IMG/VR virus record: IMGVR_UViG_3300018891_000032 | Span: 1 to 40,697 of that record | From: a virus | Direction: 5' to 3' (one strand) | Length of the DNA: 40,697 nucleotides | In this document: positions 3,194 through 40,697 of the stretch, one piece after another | Position numbering within the stretch: the first letter of the stretch is position 1 | Layout: the number at the start of each line of letters is the position of its first letter | The notes under the pieces: model-generated | What the model was told of the DNA's origin: nothing | What the model saw: only the letters and a program-made list of their open reading frames with translations | Database searches by the model: none | Translations under genes and position numbers: made by a program

Positions 3194-3427
3194 ATGAAAA
3201 CTCTTTCTTCGCAGATTGCTGATCTGCAGCGCGAGCTGGCGAATTTGGAACGGGAATTCCGAATGACGGACGACGAGTGGCGCGCGGTGGATGTGGAGTA
3301 CGTCCGACTGAAACGTCTGCGCGAAGAGTTGGATGCGCATAAGCGAGATTTGGCACATGAGATCGAGTGGCGTATCAGAGAGTTGACCGCTCTGCAGGAG
3401 GCGAATCGACATGCAGCGATTGCCTGA
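3194..3427 (+). CDS. Coiled-coil early protein
   Basis: A 77-aa protein with heptad-like hydrophobic spacing through most of its length (SSQIADLQRELANLEREF, then LKRLREELDAHKRDLA), so an extended coiled coil is likely. GAGGAGATG ribosome site upstream. The next gene overlaps its end by 17 nt. Function unknown. Confidence 0.65.
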   Translation: MKTLSSQIADLQRELANLEREFRMTDDEWRAVDVEYVRLKRLREELDAHKRDLAHEIEWRIRELTALQEANRHAAIA

Positions 3428-3635
3428 CTTTCCGGAACACGTCGAACGGACGGAACCCATGCAGCAGCGTCACCTGCAGGTACTTGCCTTTGATGTTTGC
3501 AACGATGATCTGGAGTGGACAATCCGGGACGTGATCGAGGAGTTGGAATACCTGGTCGATATGCAGGCGACGATGAGCCGAGCGGAGTTCCGAGAAGCGG
3601 TAAGGGACCAGGCAAGAAGATTGATAGCAGGATAA
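3411..3635 (+). CDS. Hypothetical early protein (74 aa)
   Basis: A 74-aa acidic, helical protein starting MQRLPDFPEHVERTE. It overlaps the preceding coiled-coil gene by 17 nt and has CAGGAGG upstream of ATG 3411. No recognised domain. Confidence 0.6.
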   Translation: MQRLPDFPEHVERTEPMQQRHLQVLAFDVCNDDLEWTIRDVIEELEYLVDMQATMSRAEFREAVRDQARRLIAG

Positions 3636-20629: not shown

Positions 20630-21652
20630 GTGGGCAATCGGTATGTCAACGTGACAATCACACGCGAAACACGACCGGCAAGCCAGCAGGGTTTTGGCAC
20701 GCCGTTGATTCTAGCCACGTCCAAGGTGCAGGCGTACAAGGAATACACCGGAGATAATGCGCTGGTATCCATCGGGGTTGACTTTGGGCAAGCGTCCAGA
20801 GTATACAAACTGGCTGAGAAGTTGCTGGGACAGGTAAACAAACCGGCGAAGGTGGCCGCCTACGGCATTGCCTATGACGGAGCAACGGGCGATCCGAATG
20901 ACTTGAAAGCGGCGCTTGACGTACTCCTGCGGGAACACAGCGATTTTTATTACCTGGTTTGCCCGGAACAGGGCGATGACGAGATTGCCGCGCTATCTGC
21001 ATGGGCGGCGGCCAATGACCGTCTGTATTTCGTTTCAACGTCGAACAAAAACCTGGCTTCTCCCAACAGCGACAACACTTTCATCATGGTTCATCCGGAT
21101 GCTGATGAACAATTTCCGGCGGAGGCGTTGGTGGGATACATTGCACCGTTGGAAATCGGTTCGTACACTGTCCAATTTAAGACGCTGAATGGCGTGCAAC
21201 CGGCGAATTTCGGCGCGACGCACGATATGGACGTGGATGCGATCCACGAGAAAAACATGGCCACGTACATCCGCGAGGGTGGCGTCAACATCGTATCGGC
21301 GGCGAAAGCGACGTCCGGGGAGTTTATCGACGTGATTCAGTCGGCGCATTTCCTGCAAGCACGCATTGCGGAAAGTGTGTTCGGCCTCCTGACGCGGGTT
21401 CCGAAAGTGCCATTCACCAACGCCGGGATTTCTATGACGGTGGCAGCCGTAGATCAACCGTTGAAAGAAGCGTACAACAACGGAATGATTGCGGAGGAAA
21501 ACGGTGAGGCGCTTTACACCGTAACCGCGCCGACGCGCGCTGAGGTTTCGACGAATGACCGCGCCAACAGGCTTCTCCCGGACGTGAAATGGTCCACAAC
21601 GATTGCCGGGGCCATTCATCAGGTAGAGGTACAAGGCGTGCTGAAAGTCTAA
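20630..21652 (+). CDS. Tail sheath protein (DUF3383-like)
   Basis: A 340-aa protein with the N-terminal VNVTITRETRPASQQGFGTPLIL segment and long beta/alpha region typical of DUF3383 contractile sheath proteins. It shows that the phage has a contractile tail. GTG 20630 follows GGGGGCATGAATC. The tube gene follows immediately, as expected. Confidence 0.82.
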   Translation: MGNRYVNVTITRETRPASQQGFGTPLILATSKVQAYKEYTGDNALVSIGVDFGQASRVYKLAEKLLGQVNKPAKVAAYGIAYDGATGDPNDLKAALDVLLREHSDFYYLVCPEQGDDEIAALSAWAAANDRLYFVSTSNKNLASPNSDNTFIMVHPDADEQFPAEALVGYIAPLEIGSYTVQFKTLNGVQPANFGATHDMDVDAIHEKNMATYIREGGVNIVSAAKATSGEFIDVIQSAHFLQARIAESVFGLLTRVPKVPFTNAGISMTVAAVDQPLKEAYNNGMIAEENGEALYTVTAPTRAEVSTNDRANRLLPDVKWSTTIAGAIHQVEVQGVLKV

Positions 21653-21669
21653 GAGAGGGGCTGAGATAG

Positions 21670-22071
21670 ATGGCAAAATCAACAAGCTACGATTTCAAGA
21701 AAGTGTCGCTCATCGTTGATGGGAGGCACCACACCGGGTTTATGGACGGTTCGCCGATCCGGGCTGAGCAAAACAACGACGGCGTGACGCCGCACGTTGG
21801 CGCTGATGGCGAAGTGGTGTTTGCGGAAAGTGCTGACCAAACCGGCACGATCACTGTCACATACAAGCACAACAGTCCGGCGTTGGCGCACGTCCGGCAG
21901 TTGTACAAAGCCCGCAAAACCTTCCCGATCATGCTGGACGACCAAAACGATCCGCGAGTGCGCGTTGGGGGCACAGAGGCGCGCGTACTCAAAATGCCGC
22001 CGTTGGAGCGCGGGACGGAAGTGACAGGCGTTGAAGTGCAATATTTCGTGGCGGACTACGACCAACGATAA
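21670..22071 (+). CDS. Tail tube protein (DUF3277-like)
   Basis: A 133-aa beta-rich protein (YDFKKVSLIVDGRHHTGFMDG...SADQTGTITVTYKHNSP) of the DUF3277 phage tube family. It lines the tail canal inside the sheath. GAGAGGGG ribosome site before ATG 21670. Confidence 0.85.
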   Translation: MAKSTSYDFKKVSLIVDGRHHTGFMDGSPIRAEQNNDGVTPHVGADGEVVFAESADQTGTITVTYKHNSPALAHVRQLYKARKTFPIMLDDQNDPRVRVGGTEARVLKMPPLERGTEVTGVEVQYFVADYDQR

Positions 22072-22099
22072 AAACCAGGACATTTTGGAGGGGTAAACA

Positions 22100-22366
22100 G
22101 TGAACAAAATTAATCCATTTATGGCGACAAAGCAATTCAAAAGCGAGATTTCGGGCGTGGTATACACGTTGCAGAAAGTCGCGCCGCGTCCTTGGCTGAA
22201 ACTGATGGACGAATGGGAAGCGAAGGGCAAGACCAATGAAAAGCTGACCGAGATCGTACTGGAGCATGTCGTGGTCGATCCGAAGGTGAGCATTGACGAT
22301 TTCGAGGACTACGCCGAGGTAGAGGAGTTGTCGATGGCGGCGTACCGATTTCAACGCGGAAAATGA
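22100..22366 (+). CDS. Tail assembly chaperone, upstream frame
   Basis: An 88-aa protein located between tube and tape measure, the place of tail chaperones (G of the G/GT pair in lambda). It begins MNKINPFMATKQFKSE and ends shortly after a UUU-C codon pair that may allow frameshift to the next frame. GGAGGGG upstream of GTG 22100. Role: holds the tape measure protein during tail assembly. Confidence 0.75.
   Translation: MNKINPFMATKQFKSEISGVVYTLQKVAPRPWLKLMDEWEAKGKTNEKLTEIVLEHVVVDPKVSIDDFEDYAEVEELSMAAYRFQRGK
22349..22352 (+). promoter_or_regulatory. Candidate +1 frameshift site
   Basis: Zero-frame codon TTT followed by C lets Phe-tRNA slip one base forward to TTC. The +1 frame is open from 22323 and continues smoothly as FNAENDELLG into the downstream frame. 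A -2 slip near GGAAAATGA is an alternative. Confidence 0.45.
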
Positions 22367-22370
22367 TGAA

Positions 22371-22580
22371 TTGTTGGGCCTCTCTAGCATTTACGATGTG
22401 GGGGAGGCCCACATTCGCAATGCGAACCTGTTTTGGTGGGCATATGTGATAGCGCAGGAGTTTCCGGGAATCAATCCCCATGATGTGAAAGAGTGGTCGC
22501 CGGACGACATTTTGGAAACGCTGGCGCGGATCATGCTTGTGGATATGAACCGGAAAGAGCCGGTTTATAAACCAAAATAA
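22371..22580 (+). CDS. Tail assembly chaperone, downstream frame (frameshift extension)
   Basis: A frame of at least 69 codons (LGLSSIYDVGEAHIRNAN...WWAYVIAQEFPGINP). The first possible independent start, TTG 22371, has no ribosome site, while the frame is open back to 22323 with sensible sequence, so it is probably made by +1 (or -2) frameshifting from the upstream chaperone. The fused product would be the GT-type chaperone. The tape measure gene follows with its own ribosome site. Confidence 0.65.
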   Translation: MLGLSSIYDVGEAHIRNANLFWWAYVIAQEFPGINPHDVKEWSPDDILETLARIMLVDMNRKEPVYKPK

Positions 22581-22592
22581 GGGGGTGAAGGT

Positions 22593-24503
22593 TTGGATAC
22601 GTTGCGCGATTTGGTGGTACGGATTGATTTTGGTGACACGGATTTGCAAACGCTGATCCGCACAGATCGAATGATAAACGAGATAGAGGACTCCTTGCGA
22701 GACATGGGGCACGAAATCAACGAAACGTCGTTGGAATTTGAGTTGCTACGCAGGGCCGCAGAGCGCGCGCTGGAAAAGGTTCAACAAGAAGCGTTTATTG
22801 CCTCTGCATTCATCGACAACTTGGGCGATCAGGCGAGTTGGGCGACATTAAAGACGACGGCGCTAGGAGCCGCGTTGTTTGGCGTCATGACTATGGCAGT
22901 CGCCGCCTCCGGACCGACGCTGGCCGCCATCGGTGCGCTGGGCGCATCGTTCCTTGCGGCAGGGGCGGGTGCTGCTGCGTTCGGCGCAGTTGCCATTGGT
23001 GCGCTGGCGCAGGTGTTTGAAACGGCCAAGGAGATCGAAAAGCTGGAAGAAAAGGCGGCCAACGCAAAGACGACGAAGGATCGGGCCGCCGCGCTGAAAG
23101 AATTGGCCGGTGTGTACGCAGGCATCAGCGAGGAACAGAGGGCCGCGCTGCAAAGCCTGCAATCGTTCAAGGACTTCTGGCGCGGGTTCGTCAAAGGATT
23201 TGAAAAGCCGGTTTTCAAAATGTTCACCTACGGGCTGAAAGGCGTGCAAACACTCCTGACCAAGCTGGAACCAACCATTTCCGGCGTCGCTGACCTGTTT
23301 GGGAACCTAGCCCGGAGTTTCAGCGAAAAAATGGAGGGGTATGGCGCGTTCAAGTTCTTCAAGTGGCTGGAAGCAAACGCGGTGGACAGTCTGAAAAACC
23401 TTATGGCCACGTTCGGTAATTTCGGGGCCGGATTCCTCAACCTGCTGCATGCGTTCGATCCGATCATGGACGACGTGGAAAAAGGCTTCCTGGGCATGAG
23501 TGAGGGGTTTAAGAAGTGGACCGACGGCCTTGGCAAAAACAAGTCATTCCAAAGTTTCATCGAGTATGCAAAGGCCAACGGTCCGGTGTTCATGGATGTA
23601 CTGGCGAATCTGGCGACGATTGCGGGCATGTTGATTAAGGAATTAGCGCCAATCGGAACAGTGGTGCTGGACGGCTTCAAAGCGACAACGGGCTTCATCA
23701 TCGACAATTGGGGCGCGGTCAAGGATACCGTTCTTGCTGCGGGCGCTGCCGTCGGTGCGTTCGTGGTGGCAATCAAGGGGCTGCAGGTCGTTACAACTAT
23801 TGCCGCGTTGTTAAAGGCGTGGAGAGCGGGCACAGTGGCCGTCACGCTGGCACAGTTGGCGTTGAACGGCGCAATGTGGGCCAATCCTCTCACATGGGTT
23901 GCGGCAGGTATTGCCGTCGTCGTTGCTGCCGGTGTCCTTCTGTACCGCAATTGGGATACCGTCAAGGCAAAGGCAATCGAGTTGTGGGGCGCGTTGAAGG
24001 AGAAATTCGCCGCGATCAAAGACGCCACCATGACCGCCATGCAACCGGTGTTTGACTTCTTTGGGCGGTTGGGTGACAAGTGGAACGCATTCAAAGAATC
24101 GGTCATGTCATTCAAGATGCCGAGTTTCGGCCTGCCGAAGTGGTTGGGCGGAAACGGGCTGATTCAGCCGGACGGATCACACGCAAGCGGGCTGGCCGAG
24201 GTCAAAAAGGATGGATATATTGCGGAGTTGCACAAGGGCGAAAGTGTCCTGACCGCGAGGCAATCCAACGCATTGCGGCAGGCGGGCGTCTTGGGGGAAA
24301 ATGCCGGGAAGCCGACAATTGACCTGAGCAGGGCCGCAGCCGCGCCGAGTGCAACGACCAAGGTTACGACGGTTGCGCCGAGCATTGCCATTCACATCCA
24401 CAACGGCGAGGGCGGTCAGAAGTTGGATGAAAAGAAAATTGCCGAACACGTTCGGCGCGAAATCGGTACGCTTTTCGAGCAATTGGCCATCGAGTTTGGC
24501 TGA
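22593..24503 (+). CDS. Tail tape measure protein
   Basis: A 636-aa tail-length ruler. N-terminal coiled-coil region, hydrophobic stretches at about 88-140 and 375-450, and a C-terminal GSHASGLAEVKKDGYIAELH segment ending in GESVLTARQ, which is typical of tape measure ends. TTG 22593 is preceded by GGGGGTGAAGG. Moderate length implies a fairly short tail. Confidence 0.92.
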   Translation: MDTLRDLVVRIDFGDTDLQTLIRTDRMINEIEDSLRDMGHEINETSLEFELLRRAAERALEKVQQEAFIASAFIDNLGDQASWATLKTTALGAALFGVMTMAVAASGPTLAAIGALGASFLAAGAGAAAFGAVAIGALAQVFETAKEIEKLEEKAANAKTTKDRAAALKELAGVYAGISEEQRAALQSLQSFKDFWRGFVKGFEKPVFKMFTYGLKGVQTLLTKLEPTISGVADLFGNLARSFSEKMEGYGAFKFFKWLEANAVDSLKNLMATFGNFGAGFLNLLHAFDPIMDDVEKGFLGMSEGFKKWTDGLGKNKSFQSFIEYAKANGPVFMDVLANLATIAGMLIKELAPIGTVVLDGFKATTGFIIDNWGAVKDTVLAAGAAVGAFVVAIKGLQVVTTIAALLKAWRAGTVAVTLAQLALNGAMWANPLTWVAAGIAVVVAAGVLLYRNWDTVKAKAIELWGALKEKFAAIKDATMTAMQPVFDFFGRLGDKWNAFKESVMSFKMPSFGLPKWLGGNGLIQPDGSHASGLAEVKKDGYIAELHKGESVLTARQSNALRQAGVLGENAGKPTIDLSRAAAAPSATTKVTTVAPSIAIHIHNGEGGQKLDEKKIAEHVRREIGTLFEQLAIEFG

Positions 24504-34592: not shown

Positions 34593-35906
34593 ATGGTTAA
34601 CAAAAGGGGAGTTTTGCTAAGAGTATTAGATAGATTAAAAATCGATGAAGCAATTGAAGTGATTAGAGAAAAATATCCGAATTGGACTCCTGAAAAAAAG
34701 CCAAAGAAAAAGGCAGATATAAAAGAAAAGTTCTTATCACTTGACCAGATTATCAGAGAAGACGAAATTGAAGATTTCGTCCAAATGGCTGTGATGAAGA
34801 AAAACATTGGGTTCCCTGCATACACATACAAGATAACAAGTACTGATTTCCTAGATGGATTAACAGCTCAAGAAGTTGCAGAGACCTTTTCAAAAAATAA
34901 CTATACATTTAAAGACATTTACTTAATCACTACAGTCGCGAAACTTACTAATAATGTGATTGAATTAAACGTTAGATTAAAAGAATACGAAAGTTCCTGG
35001 AGAACAGGAGCGAATAATATAGAAAGCCTTTCCGCAGTCTATACATCAAACGTAATTTTAGATATTGAGCGAAAAGTCCTGACGGTGATTTCTGGAAATC
35101 ATAAAGTACACGAGGAAATTATCAGTTTCCTCCAATTGGTACTACGTTGGCCATTGCATTCATATCGTGTAAAAGAGATAACCAATCAGTTAATGGATCT
35201 GGGGAGTGTAAGCTTTAAAACCGCGGTACTTCTTGATTTGACTCATAACCGATTAAAGGAAAAGGGAATTGAATCAACATTTAAAGAGATAAAATTTGCG
35301 ATTGGAAATAAACGAAGAAAAGATGGGATACGAAATGTAGCAATTGGGGGGAGGGCGCTCCTGTCCTCTCAACTGGCTTGCGAATATATTACGATGGGAA
35401 GTGACATCGTATTTTTTAAAGTTGACATGCAAATGGACGGAGAAGAATTCTCCGCAAAGGTCTATCTCAAAGGTCAGGAATTGGATATACTGAAAATAGT
35501 TATCTTAGACACAGATAACGAAGTTGTAAAGAAAAAAGCTATGAGTATTATCCAGCAAGAATATATCGATTTATGTACTATAGGCATCCAAAATATGCCA
35601 GAAACTAAAAAATTACTTGAATCGATTAAGGAGAAATTCGTAAATCAAGATCAGTTAATTACTCGTGCGATAAAAGATAGTACATTGAAATCGATTGAAA
35701 TTATGGCAAACTTATTGGATATTTTGGATGACCAAGATGAGCGTGTTCTTGATGCATTAACTCAGTTTGTAGAATCAAATAGAACCATACTTGATTCTGT
35801 AGGGTTTGATGACATTGACGTTAACCTTGAAAAAATTAATAATTTTGTTGGACTTGAAAATGAAGCGGTACTTGATGATGAAGATTATACGGAATCCGAT
35901 GAATAA
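34593..35906 (+). CDS. Three-gene system, protein 1 (unknown, acidic C-terminus)
   Basis: A 437-aa protein not recognised from any family. The N-terminal ~50 residues are basic (PEKKPKKKADIKEK). The middle has mixed helix and strand (VLTVISGNHKVHEEI, FFKVDMQMDGEEFSAKVYL), and the end is helical and very acidic (DDEDYTESDE). AT-rich, unlike the phage and the conjugation genes. Six bases separate its stop from the next gene's TTG 35912 frame. Could be the sensor or regulator of the system; no motif proves this. Confidence 0.7.
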   Translation: MVNKRGVLLRVLDRLKIDEAIEVIREKYPNWTPEKKPKKKADIKEKFLSLDQIIREDEIEDFVQMAVMKKNIGFPAYTYKITSTDFLDGLTAQEVAETFSKNNYTFKDIYLITTVAKLTNNVIELNVRLKEYESSWRTGANNIESLSAVYTSNVILDIERKVLTVISGNHKVHEEIISFLQLVLRWPLHSYRVKEITNQLMDLGSVSFKTAVLLDLTHNRLKEKGIESTFKEIKFAIGNKRRKDGIRNVAIGGRALLSSQLACEYITMGSDIVFFKVDMQMDGEEFSAKVYLKGQELDILKIVILDTDNEVVKKKAMSIIQQEYIDLCTIGIQNMPETKKLLESIKEKFVNQDQLITRAIKDSTLKSIEIMANLLDILDDQDERVLDALTQFVESNRTILDSVGFDDIDVNLEKINNFVGLENEAVLDDEDYTESDE

Positions 35907-35929
35907 ATAATTTGAAGGTGGTGAGTTTG

Positions 35930-36568
35930 GTGCTGGGCTGGATGGAAGATAGTGTTCTCTATGAATTTAATGCTTTGGAATTCAAGGACATCACAAGCCG
36001 ACTCACCCCTTCAAAATATGAATCAATTGATTTTAGGCATCTTGAGAATGGAAATTTGGAAATCAAGTATACCTGGATTGATCCGATACGAATGAAGGAT
36101 AAAATTATTGCAAGAGACCAAAAGACCGTTACATTTTGGTTTTTTTGTAATAAATTTTTAATGTCCTGCTTTGGTAACTCAGAAAGCGCTATTTCTTACG
36201 CAATTCTTAATTTATCAAAAAAAGCAAAGGCAGAATTTAAGCGTGTTGATACATTTGATCATTGGTATCAATTCCATTATCCCGCTAATAATTGGTTTGC
36301 AACATTAACAGGTGTACATATTAAGAAGAATCCAAGTGCTTTTGATGAACGGGACATTTTAAAACTTAATATTAAGGAATTAACACGGGAGAAGCTAAAC
36401 GAAAGCTTCGATAAAAAGGAAATAACCAACTTAACTTTCAGATATGGTAATACTACATTTCATATTGACCTTGCCTCAGTAATATCATTTGCAGATACTG
36501 CATCTGAAAAAGAAATATATAGCGTGGTTAAAAATATTGTAGAAGAGTTGCGAAAGAAACATGATTAA
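35930..36568 (+). CDS. Three-gene system, protein 2 (unknown)
   Basis: A 212-aa soluble protein, unrecognised, with a WIDPIRMKDKIIARDQKTVTF beta-like stretch and conserved-looking aromatic residues (WYQFHYPANNWF). GTG 35930 has AAGGTGGTGA 8 nt upstream; TTG 35927 or ATG 35942 are alternatives. Its last 8 nt overlap the next gene, so the pair is translationally coupled. Same AT-rich composition as its neighbours. Confidence 0.68.
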   Translation: MLGWMEDSVLYEFNALEFKDITSRLTPSKYESIDFRHLENGNLEIKYTWIDPIRMKDKIIARDQKTVTFWFFCNKFLMSCFGNSESAISYAILNLSKKAKAEFKRVDTFDHWYQFHYPANNWFATLTGVHIKKNPSAFDERDILKLNIKELTREKLNESFDKKEITNLTFRYGNTTFHIDLASVISFADTASEKEIYSVVKNIVEELRKKHD

Positions 36569-37634
36569 AAGGTGGCTCGTTTTTTTACTTCTTTTAGTTC
36601 TTCCGGTTCTATTGTTATTTCAAATTAATTTTGTTAGGGTTTTCACTGACAATGAGTACGATAAATTAAAAGATCAAGTTGAGTTGATTAGTTGGCTTTT
36701 CGCTGGTGTGGTAGCCATGGTGGCTTTTTTAAGCTTGTTTATTGGTTTCTTGTATGAGAATAAGATGATCGCAGCATCAAATATTCGAAGGCAATTGTAC
36801 CATCCGTATAGCCTAAGCTTAACAGACATCAGACAGAACTTACTTTCCTATGAGAGAAATATTTCAGGAAGTCGGCTTATCAAATATATTTATTACAACT
36901 TTGTCCTGGTGTCTACATTTACTATTTTTATTTGGGGTACTGCAGTTGGATTTTATACTCAGTTCCAATTTTCTCATAAAGTAAATTTCTCGATTGAATC
37001 AGTACTAAATTTTGGGATTTATGCTTTTTATGCATTACTTTGCTTTCTTCTATTTGGCGTTACATTTTTACTTAATCAATTGAGGAATAATAAAGATCCA
37101 CTGGGTAGTGGTTATCTACCGACAACAAAGGATTTATGTAATATTGACCATTTGATTAAAGCTGGCTGTGATCTTGACGAACTGTCATTAAAGCTTGGGC
37201 CAAGCTTAGAATTTTTCAAAAACCCACCATTTGATAATCCAACTTATGAAATGAATTTTCATCTACCTATTAAACTATCTAATTTAAGATTTGTTATAAA
37301 ACTGTATGATAAGGACAGACGCCCTCTTGTTAAATGCTACGGGATAATAAACACTGTTACATTTATAGGTGAAAAAGTCCTTATCAATTTAACAAATGAT
37401 TTGTCAGAGTCTGTATATCTCGCTTTACAAGAGGAGTCCACGGGTGAGTTTAAACTTTATGATTCTGAGCTTACGGTTATATCACGAATTAATTTGAAAC
37501 TAAGTGATAGTACAAATGAGGGTTTCAGCTTTAAGGCTAGTCGCGTAATTTACCAACGGGATTCTATAGAATTAGATAAGGGATTACTTGAGGATATCAC
37601 GGATACTGGAATAAAATATTTGATAGAGAGATGA
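36561..37634 (+). CDS. Three-gene system, four-helix membrane protein
   Basis: A 357-aa protein with four transmembrane segments (about 5-22, 42-64, 110-132 and 148-171) and a soluble, beta-rich C-terminal domain of about 185 residues. Overlaps protein 2 by 8 nt. This layout, a membrane protein at the end of a small operon, fits a membrane effector in defence or a surface exclusion protein, but no family is recognised. Stop codon lies in a strong terminator. Confidence 0.72.
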   Translation: MIKRWLVFLLLLVLPVLLLFQINFVRVFTDNEYDKLKDQVELISWLFAGVVAMVAFLSLFIGFLYENKMIAASNIRRQLYHPYSLSLTDIRQNLLSYERNISGSRLIKYIYYNFVLVSTFTIFIWGTAVGFYTQFQFSHKVNFSIESVLNFGIYAFYALLCFLLFGVTFLLNQLRNNKDPLGSGYLPTTKDLCNIDHLIKAGCDLDELSLKLGPSLEFFKNPPFDNPTYEMNFHLPIKLSNLRFVIKLYDKDRRPLVKCYGIINTVTFIGEKVLINLTNDLSESVYLALQEESTGEFKLYDSELTVISRINLKLSDSTNEGFSFKASRVIYQRDSIELDKGLLEDITDTGIKYLIER

Positions 37635-38069: not shown

Positions 38070-38157
38070 TCCGCCCGCCTCGCATACGCTCTAGCGAAGG
38101 CGAGCGTTAGGGGATACTACGGCCTCCGTCCCGAAAGGGTTGGAGGCCTTGTTTTTA
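38070..38157 (+). ncRNA. Candidate structured RNA
   Basis: TATAAT (38063-38068) with TTGGTG at 19 bp upstream could start a short RNA. It would fold into nested stems CGCCT/AGGCG (38076-38102) around CGCT/AGCG, then end in the terminator hairpin at 38121-38148 with its T-run. The weak promoter spacing makes this tentative. Confidence 0.3.
38121..38157 (+). terminator. Terminator between convergent genes
   Basis: GGCCTCC/GGAGGCC stem with an inner CCC-GAAA-GGG, followed by TTGTTTTT. It stands between the rightward small gene and the leftward ATPase gene. Confidence 0.82.
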
Positions 38158-40245
38158 TGCTGCATTGCGCGGTGTGGTGTTGCTCTGCGCTGTGTTGTGT
38201 TGCGCACTCGGAGGTGCCGTCATGTGAGCCATGAAAACGGTATGCTGCTCGTCACCTACCCGAAGCACGTTCAGTGCGTGGAAGCGTGGCATCTTGACAT
38301 AGTCCTCGACTGTATATGGTGCCAACTCCTCGGCAAGCTCCCGGAATGTTTTCTTGCTGGCACGGTAGATGTGGTAGTGGGGGCCTGCGCTACGGATGAT
38401 CTCGGCCAGATCGCTCGGAATCTGCTCCCAAGAGTGAAACATCCAAACGTAACCGACACGCCACTTACGGGACTCCACCGCAGCGGACTTCCAGGCGCGT
38501 GCCGAACGGAGGAACTGGTGCGGCTCGTCGTAGATCACAAAGAAGGGGAACTGTTTGGCCTCTTCGCGCAGCGTCATGGCCAAATCAATCTTCACGGACA
38601 GCAGGTTTACGATCAGATCAACTCCCTCGGGGCCGAGAGCAGTCTTCGGCACGTCGATGATGACAGCGTGCGGCTCCGACATGAGCGCGACCATGTCCAG
38701 CGAGTTGTCGGAATCGTAGCACTCCGCCAAGAACTCGTCGCCAAGGATGGTATCCAACCGGTTGAGGATGGGGGCCAGCACCTGCGCGCGCCGTCCGTCG
38801 GTCATCCGCCCGAAGTCCTCCAGCGTGGTCCGGTGGATACCCGGCGTCATTCCGGCCACCAGCTCCTCCCGGTAGTTTTCGTCCTCGAAGATGCGGAGCA
38901 CTTCGGACAGCCGGGGGGTCCGCATGGCCATGATTGCCGCACGTAAGAACCGGGCCGTCTGCGCGCCGGCCTCGTCGGTGGCGGTGTTGAAGAAGCTGAT
39001 CACACTGTTAGCCAACCGGTTCTGAGCCCGCGGCGAATACCTCACCTCGCAAAAGTCCAAGGCAAACGGTACGGTGCCATCAATCCGAATCCTCTTTACC
39101 TTATCCGGAGGTAGCACAGCCTCAACCTCGTTTCCAATCTCCCCTTTGGCCGGGTCGATGCTGAGGGCGCCGAACCCGTTCTTGACCGCCTCCACGATCA
39201 GGTTGGCACCGTATCCCCGCGTCTTCCCCGATCCCATGCCGCCGATGACCACCCGGGGCAAGCACAGCTCGTCGTGGTTGTCGGTTGGCATGTACACTTC
39301 ATACTCTCCGTCCTTTTGTTCAACTGTACCCAGTTTCATCCCGCCCCGTCGTACTTCCGCCGGTGCCTTTGATTCCCGCTGCGACTTGGCGGCCACTCCC
39401 ATGTACTCTTCCTGCAGTGACCTGGGCGGCAACTGGATCAGTCGGCCGATCTCCGCTGGGGTGATAATGTCGCGGCGCGAGGATAAAAAGGGGACGGCGA
39501 TCCGCCGGGCGCGCGCATCGCGCAGAAAACGTTTCAGCCGCCACCCGGGCACTCGGCGGGCATCCAGCTGGTTGTCTCCGTTCAGGCTGGCTAGGGCAGC
39601 GCATAAGCCCCGACCAAGGCGCTGCCGTCGGCGCGGGTCGGCCGAGCGGACGAGCACCCGGATGGCAAAGTCAAAGCCCTGGTCGGCCAGTTTCTGCTCG
39701 GTCGCCTCGGACAAGTGACCGAACTTCCGCCAGCCTCTCGGTTTGTACCCGCGATCGAACTCCCGCCGGTCCGTCGCCGCATCTTTCCACCAGTCCGGCT
39801 CGGCCGCCTGAAACCCAAACTGCACGACGGCATAATCTTCTTCGCGGAACTGCCGGGATAGTTCCAGCAGTTGGGGGAGGGGGGCCAACTTGCGCCGATC
39901 CGTGGAGAGTGAGAGGAAATGGGGAAACCGTAGGCGAAGTTGCCAACCATCCGTGTCAGGGCCAAACGGGGCCAGATGATCATCCTCTGCCGGCTCTAGC
40001 ACGGCGGTCGGCCATGTCGCCTCCACCTGTTGCTGCGCCAGCTCAGCGGTGTGATCCGGGGTAGCCATCCGGATCTCGTACTGGTCCCGGGCTATGATGG
40101 TCTCCCAGAAAATGCGCTCCCGTTCCGGCCAGCGCCACCTTCTGGCAGCCGCAGCTATAAGATCCACGATCTCCTGATACCCGTCAGCCAGCGGTGCCGC
40201 GAAATACTCCACATCTTCGTTGGTCGTGGAGAGGCGCGGGACCAC
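38155..40245 (-). CDS. Conjugation-type P-loop ATPase (VirB4/TraD/TraG-like)
   Basis: A 696-aa ATPase from GTG 40245. Walker A GGMGSGKT at about 335-342 and Walker B FFVIYDEPHQF at about 568-578. The SIDPAKGEIGNEVE segment and WMFHSWEQIPSDL sensor-like region fit a coupling or secretion ATPase of a Gram-positive conjugation system. The frame is open further upstream to 40593 but that part overlaps the next gene and lacks good sequence, so the shorter start is preferred. GC-rich, unlike the AT-rich island. It needs an upstream membrane partner, and the next gene may be one. Confidence 0.75.
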   Translation of the reverse strand: MVPRLSTTNEDVEYFAAPLADGYQEIVDLIAAAARRWRWPERERIFWETIIARDQYEIRMATPDHTAELAQQQVEATWPTAVLEPAEDDHLAPFGPDTDGWQLRLRFPHFLSLSTDRRKLAPLPQLLELSRQFREEDYAVVQFGFQAAEPDWWKDAATDRREFDRGYKPRGWRKFGHLSEATEQKLADQGFDFAIRVLVRSADPRRRQRLGRGLCAALASLNGDNQLDARRVPGWRLKRFLRDARARRIAVPFLSSRRDIITPAEIGRLIQLPPRSLQEEYMGVAAKSQRESKAPAEVRRGGMKLGTVEQKDGEYEVYMPTDNHDELCLPRVVIGGMGSGKTRGYGANLIVEAVKNGFGALSIDPAKGEIGNEVEAVLPPDKVKRIRIDGTVPFALDFCEVRYSPRAQNRLANSVISFFNTATDEAGAQTARFLRAAIMAMRTPRLSEVLRIFEDENYREELVAGMTPGIHRTTLEDFGRMTDGRRAQVLAPILNRLDTILGDEFLAECYDSDNSLDMVALMSEPHAVIIDVPKTALGPEGVDLIVNLLSVKIDLAMTLREEAKQFPFFVIYDEPHQFLRSARAWKSAAVESRKWRVGYVWMFHSWEQIPSDLAEIIRSAGPHYHIYRASKKTFRELAEELAPYTVEDYVKMPRFHALNVLRVGDEQHTVFMAHMTAPPSAQHNTAQSNTTPRNAA

Positions 40246-40262
40246 TCTGACAACGGACCAAC

Positions 40263-40697
40263 CTACTTTTGTAGAAACGTCGACTGTATCCCTGCTTGGA
40301 TCGCGTCGTTCAACATCGCCCCCAGGAAGTACAGGAGCAGCACCATCGATGGTACCAGTGCCGTCCCCAGTATTATGCCGCCAGCCGTCATGAGTGTTAT
40401 CCTGCCGAACCGACGTTGGAAGATAACCATCACGATCCCGGCAAGAAGCCCGAGCGTCCCGATTACAAGCGCCAGACCTTGGAGTGTCCCGAACATCGGG
40501 CTGAAACTGCCCCACATCTTTAGAACGGATGCCATGCTCCCGTTGTCCGCCGCCGCTGGCGCTGCGGTCATCAAGCTGCCCGCGACCGTCCATAGCGTGA
40601 TCGCGAGCTGCGATAACTTTGGGTTTGGTTTCACTACCACCACCCGTTCACATCCGGCCGCCGGTACTAAAGGCACGCCATTGATACGCACGATCAT
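40263..40697 (-). CDS. Small membrane protein of the conjugation cluster (TrbC/VirB2-like)
   Basis: At least 144 aa; the ATG at the window edge may be the start, or the gene may begin beyond it. It has a signal-like segment (about 30-50, ending near APAAAD) and two long hydrophobic helices (about 70-93 and 98-125). This fits a pilin/TrbC-VirB2-like or other conjugation membrane protein. It lies 17 bp upstream of the ATPase gene in the same direction. Confidence 0.55.
   Translation of the reverse strand: MIVRINGVPLVPAAGCERVVVVKPNPKLSQLAITLWTVAGSLMTAAPAAADNGSMASVLKMWGSFSPMFGTLQGLALVIGTLGLLAGIVMVIFQRRFGRITLMTAGGIILGTALVPSMVLLLYFLGAMLNDAIQAGIQSTFLQK

Follow-up and report, generated by a model that had tools for sequence, protein, structure and literature searches.

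The window, i.e., the whole stretch of 40,697 nucleotides that was analysed, carries genes for terminase, portal, scaffold, capsid, sheath, tube, ORF1/ORF2, tape measure, baseplate and endolysin in this order, and YqaJ, RecT and an antirepressor are encoded further left. It belongs to a phage with a contractile tail that is probably temperate. The part of the tail gene block treated here comprises the following features:

20630-21652, + strand: tail sheath protein of a contractile tail (DUF3383 2e-20; phrog_205 tail sheath 7e-80)
21670-22071, + strand: tail tube protein, first gene upstream of ORF1 (KPP10_Orf10 4e-7; phrog_280 2e-30)
22100-22366, + strand: ORF1, the putative G part or short tail assembly chaperone, 88 aa, GTG start (phrog_1778 E 4e-15)
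22349-22352, + strand: candidate UUU_C slip site, where the P-site Phe codon UUU would re-pair as UUC (TTT_C in 48 of the 50 loci called shift type below, CCC in 2)
22350-22580, + strand: T part in the +1 frame, predicted C-terminal extension of a G-T fusion; open, and conserved as protein among relatives
22374-22412, + strand: predicted mRNA hairpin with arms at 22374-22391 and 22395-22412 and a 3-nt loop; covariation
22593-24503, + strand: tape measure protein, first gene downstream of the T part (phrog_58 E 8e-20)

Elsewhere in the window, an 812-aa gene on the minus strand (38155-40593) falls into phrog_5156, of unknown function (E 3e-176), and had no Pfam or PADLOC match. Three consecutive plus-strand genes downstream of the endolysin (34593-37634; 437, 218 and 357 aa) had no Pfam or PADLOC match, and the first of them (437 aa) no PHROG match either.

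The GTG start of ORF1 is preceded by GGAGGGG at 22087-22093, and two relatives (L001, L002) have ATG in its place. The protein ends in ...MAAYRFQRGK. Its family, phrog_1778, is listed as unknown, and no match to G was found among the Pfam chaperone families. The AlphaFold2 model of G (pLDDT 90.5) matched best the YqbN structure (3klu; Z 9.0 over 82 residues, 2.6 A). The tail assembly chaperone gp13 of HK97 (2ob9) reached Z 5.9 and was also the top Foldseek match (E 0.014); the scores against both structures are moderate. The T part was modelled as helical with middling confidence (pLDDT 75.8), and its comparison with solved structures gave no match worth naming. G and T were modelled apart, from alignments free of rows from annotated phage records. 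ORF1 also lies between the tail tube and tape measure genes, which is the place of the G/GT chaperone pair. The assignment of ORF1 and the downstream open frame as the G and T parts of a tail assembly chaperone is supported by this gene order and by the predicted fold of G, as the first-pass annotation of this DNA had proposed from the letters alone. It offers a proposed function for phrog_1778, a family of unlisted function. Moreover, it would explain why the T part is unannotated or named as a separate hypothetical gene in D6E, Aeribacillus phage AP45, Listeria phage B054 (gp16/gp17) and others. In the GenBank record of D6E (GU568037; locus L007), the T part at 3227-3430 carries no annotation, nor does ORF1.

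ORF1 is closed by the TGA at 22364-22366, directly followed by a second in-frame TGA at 22367-22369. Tandem in-frame stops after ORF1 are also present in L001, L002, L004, L005 and L019. The +1 frame opens at 22323, which is not a start of translation, and runs without a stop up to the TAA at 22578-22580. From the TTC at 22350 it reads FNAENDELLGLSS without a gap; counted from this TTC, the T part has 76 residues and the G-T fusion would have 159 in total. In the ORF1 frame, TTT occupies 22349-22351 and the next base is C22352, which makes the TTT-C at 22349-22352 exact. The first-pass annotation had reported the gapless downstream frame, named this TTT-C as the slip site and noted a first start without a ribosome site; all its coordinates were correct. 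The first mechanical start in the +1 frame past the TTC is the TTG at 22371, before which no AGGAG-type Shine-Dalgarno was found, only a 4-base TGAT match. An AGGAG at 22323-22327 was considered and set aside: it lies 21 nt from the slip site and reflects Glu codons that are variable in relatives. The -1 frame in the window closes 83 nt past the ORF1 stop.

Homologues were gathered from viral contigs, annotated phages and whole bacterial genomes, mostly phages and prophages of Bacillota, giving 89 distinct homologous loci. In genome contigs, a search with a single protein as query returned no loci and a search with an alignment returned three from Paenibacillus; the T parts of all loci were too divergent for their alignment to serve as query. 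In 88 of the 89 loci the +1 frame continues open for 40 codons or more beyond the ORF1 stop, and in 14 the -1 frame does, so the relation expected for a heptamer-type -1 shift, a downstream frame at -1 to the first, is not what these loci have. The first-pass call of a forward shift by one base agrees with this frame relation.

The loci fall without overlap into 50 of a shift type, which includes the window, 38 of a start type and a single degenerate one (L057). Within the shift type, 48 have TTT_C in the last codons of ORF1, 2 have CCC in its place (Pd_22F with CCC_A and L045 with CCC_T), and a start for T is lacking throughout; among the 48, L028 and L055 are less sure, having TTT_CGA away from the usual motif. 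In the start type, a conserved codon opens T in all 38 loci (36 ATG, 1 GTG, 1 TTG), and TTT_C occurs in none. There, T begins inside an acidic tail of ORF1, typically with M-T/P-I-S-K-x-E-A. These loci are mostly prophages from the order of Paenibacillus and include L014-L016, L021-L025, L038, L039, L041, L042, L048-L053, L056, L058, L059, L061-L069, L071-L075 and others. A sort blind to the slip site gave the same picture: among 53 loci lacking an ATG for T, 48 carry TTT_C, and the other five comprise the 2 with CCC, 2 in which GTG or TTG starts T at that position, and the degenerate one. The tree of ORF1 places three changes between the two types and does not settle which is older. Judged by frames and starts, this is one gene family with two ways of expressing the same second part, by a predicted frameshift fusion or by separate initiation. 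The clean split suggests that tail assembly tolerates both a fused and a separately started T, and it allows a test of whether T needs its fusion to G.

The codons around the site were counted in 47 loci. The Phe codon is TTT in 47/47, compared with an average share of 53% for TTT among Phe codons. The codon that follows, in the A site, is CAA in 22, CTT in 15, CGT in 4, CGA in 3 and CAG in 3. When Leu follows, it is always CTT (15/15), never CTC, CTA or CTG. Since the loci were chosen by the site and the codon probabilities ignore deeper relatedness, these statistics serve as illustration, not as proof; a count with less bias is that of 48 plus 2 among the 50 shift-type loci. The A-site codons are not obviously rare, which was counted against slippage. 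In five loci of Bacillales type (L118, L121, L123, L124, L125), TTT_CGT or TTT_CGA stands directly before the stop (TTT_CGT_TAA). Four loci have UUU_CGU and match influenza PA-X in both the tetramer and the codon in the A site. Besides UUU, CCC is the other codon known to slip by +1. To our knowledge, few conserved natural sets of +1 sites exist beyond prfB. The 48 UUU_C and 2 CCC loci form a large natural series of such sites and may tell which codons in the P and A sites allow ribosomes to slip by +1 in bacteria. For PA-X, P-site slippage on UUU_C is the favoured model, the site and direction having been fixed by mass spectrometry, and a wider class of sites was predicted, namely UUU_C with restricted A- and E-site codons (PMC3498833). 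By their codons, the phage loci fit this predicted class.

The gene order, the predicted fold of G, the conservation of the +1 frame and of UUU_C, and the lack of a conserved T start are what the sequences show. On this sequence evidence, the long form of the chaperone is very probably made by +1 slippage at the TTT_C at 22349-22352. The region 22100-22580 would then yield two chaperone products. Most ribosomes would stop at the TGA at 22364 and give the short G protein, and a minority would slip by +1 with UUU (22349-22351) in the P site, where tRNA-Phe would re-pair to UUC. Reading would go on with AAC GCG GAA to the end of the 159-residue G-T fusion. By analogy with gpG/gpGT of lambda, G would coat the tape measure protein and the T extension would recruit tail tube subunits. 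We infer that slippage takes place, how often it does so, that it happens in the P site and what the two products do in assembly.

Several other routes to T were weighed. T might be a separate gene that starts in the overlap, at TTG 22371 or at 22374, either alone or coupled to the termination of G. There is indeed a TTG at 22371, and 38 relatives have a conserved ATG, GTG or TTG for T in the overlap. However, these relatives differ from the window by their conserved start, their acidic ORF1 tail and the lack of the UUU_C that the window has. The codon at the place of the TTG is TTG, CTG, CTT or TTA across the window's clade, D6E, L019 and L026 have no start codon nearby, and no conserved T start in the overlap is found in this clade. 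The start at 22371, which had been named at first pass as the competing possibility, is contradicted by this variation and by the lack of a Shine-Dalgarno, and a separate T gene in the window is improbable. The same frame would be reached from another site by slipping back two bases or by shifting at the stop codon. Mu uses -2 (PMC3498833), and the 8 nt between the stop and the base of the hairpin are usual for events that take place while the stop is in the A site. Yet -2 re-pairing is not possible in all relatives, whereas tRNA-Phe moving from UUU to UUC re-pairs in full, and TTT_C is the only shift-prone tetramer that the shift-type loci share, with a distance to the stop that varies. Immediately 5' of the stop, most of the clade has AAA, but D6E and L026 have GAA; re-pairing in the new frame is poor for both codons. 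The GAA led to the rejection of slippage at the stop (AAA_UGA to AAU), and a shift of either sort has little chance of being the right explanation.

The frame break could also stem from a sequencing error, or from one base inserted recently into what used to be a single gene. With three T in a row at the site, one surplus T would give the same picture. Against this, the same frame relation recurs in 88 of the 89 loci, which come from independent sequencing projects; the break is therefore neither a sequencing error nor a local accident, and this reading has next to no probability. In the window, an independent start, a sequencing error and a -1 shift are all unlikely, and +1 slippage at TTT_C is preferred.

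The second feature of the overlap, absent from the first-pass annotation, is the hairpin 3' of the ORF1 stop. Its stem has up to 18 pairs, and its base lies about 22 nt 3' of the TTTC and 8 nt 3' of the stop. In a gap-free alignment of ten relatives, two-sided changes occur in 12 of the 18 pairs and 85.6% of the cells are paired, against 38-56% when slid; 0 of 500 shuffles reach this. RNAalifold gave -21.2 kcal/mol. On synonymous resampling of the T codons, the window (as L006) has z -3.9, and z ranges from -2.9 to -4.8 in 13 loci, namely the window, L001, L002, L004, L005, L017, L018, L019, L026, L047, L081, L099 and L105. D6E has a ten-pair stem of different sequence, for which z is only -1.4. 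Outside the clade, L010, L043 and L119 reach z -2 to -2.8 and most loci show nothing, so that a base-paired 3' element kept by compensatory change is found in the window's clade only. Judging from these comparisons, the hairpin is largely a clade-level addition that is selected as RNA. In the Paenibacillus phage Pd_22F (L008; 2743-2845), a 13-pair stem begins 10 nt past the ORF1 stop; its sequence is unrelated to that of the window's hairpin.

Most UUU_C loci lack the hairpin, so the shift in general does not depend on it. It lies 20-23 nt from the shift site in ten loci of the clade and 28 nt in L047, outside the 3-15 nt at which stimulators start according to a review (PMC5009743). This distance does not fit the known geometry. 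A check by eye of the spacer found no pseudoknot partner, the loop sequence being paired within the stem, and Rfam gave no match in 21600-23000. Ribosome collision at the hairpin was also considered and rejected: behind a ribosome held at the stop, the next would sit some 30 nt upstream rather than at 22349. The chances that the hairpin tunes the ratio of G to G-T are about even. It may act as a distal stimulator, through the ribosome at the stop, or on the mRNA and the expression of the tape measure gene. That it is unrelated to the shift, and works instead on mRNA stability, on processing or on transcription into the tape measure gene, is given a little less than an even chance. The hairpin sits in a stretch left bare by ribosomes that end at 22364, a T-rich run follows the stem in D6E and L026, most other UUU_C loci lack it, and its base is at least 22 nt from the slip site. 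On the other side, the window has no T run after the hairpin, which a terminator scan did not flag, and the distance between hairpin and TTT_C is fixed in ten loci that align without gaps. A tentative and rather doubtful extension would be that bacteria have a natural class of +1 sites on UUU_C in which few A-site codons are allowed (CAA/CAG/CTT/CGT/CGA). In one clade, the shift at these sites would be adjusted by a hairpin, either from a distance of more than 20 nt 3' of UUU_C or via the ribosome at the ORF1 stop. The literature searched held no precedent for such a hairpin geometry.

Frameshifted tail chaperones are well established, with -1 shifts in lambda, SPP1 17.5 and the Vandenendeviridae (PMC5009743, PMC6316719, PMC12846349), a -2 shift in gpGT of Mu (PMC3498833) and, very likely, a +1 shift in the archaeal myovirus HSTV-2 (PMC5009743). 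The earlier remark that +1 is less usual for these genes fits this literature. For the chaperone genes of T4-like phages, separate expression by a non-frameshift route has been proposed (Vladimirov 2022, as cited in PMC12846349). Shifts of +1 at CCC are described for tube or capsid genes of the Listeria phages PSA, A118 and A500 and of SPP1 (PMC5009743, PMC6316719). The literature searched, which took in few subscription papers, gave no earlier account of a conserved family of chaperones with +1 UUU_C sites, of how it alternates with separate initiation or of the hairpin, and priority is not certain.

Compared to the pairs of lambda (gpG/gpGT), HK97, P2 and SPP1 (17.5/17.5*), the window has the same position between tube and tape measure genes, a short and a predicted frameshift-extended product, and the chaperone fold of G (HK97 gp13, 2ob9, Z 5.9). 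It differs by its proposed +1 shift at UUU_C instead of -1 at a heptamer, and by its contractile tail and phrog_1778. YqbN of Bacillus subtilis (3klu) is the best fold match of G, at 8% sequence identity. HSTV-2 shares the +1 direction, the gene position and the contractile tail; it is an archaeal virus, likened by direction, position and tail only and not by site. The CCC shifts of the Listeria phages and SPP1 are similar as +1 P-site slippage in tail or capsid genes of phages of Gram-positive hosts, and two relatives of the window's locus use CCC as well. In contrast, theirs extend a tube or capsid protein, with CCC beside a stop or pseudoknot, whereas in the window a chaperone would be extended, with UUU_C before a sense codon. 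The gpGT of Mu is likewise a tail chaperone ending in the frame reached by +1 or -2, but differs in direction and site. Influenza PA-X (UUU_CGU; PMC3498833) resembles the window in its P-site UUU_C and limited A-site codons, but it involves a eukaryotic ribosome and an unrelated gene, and no hairpin is claimed for it.
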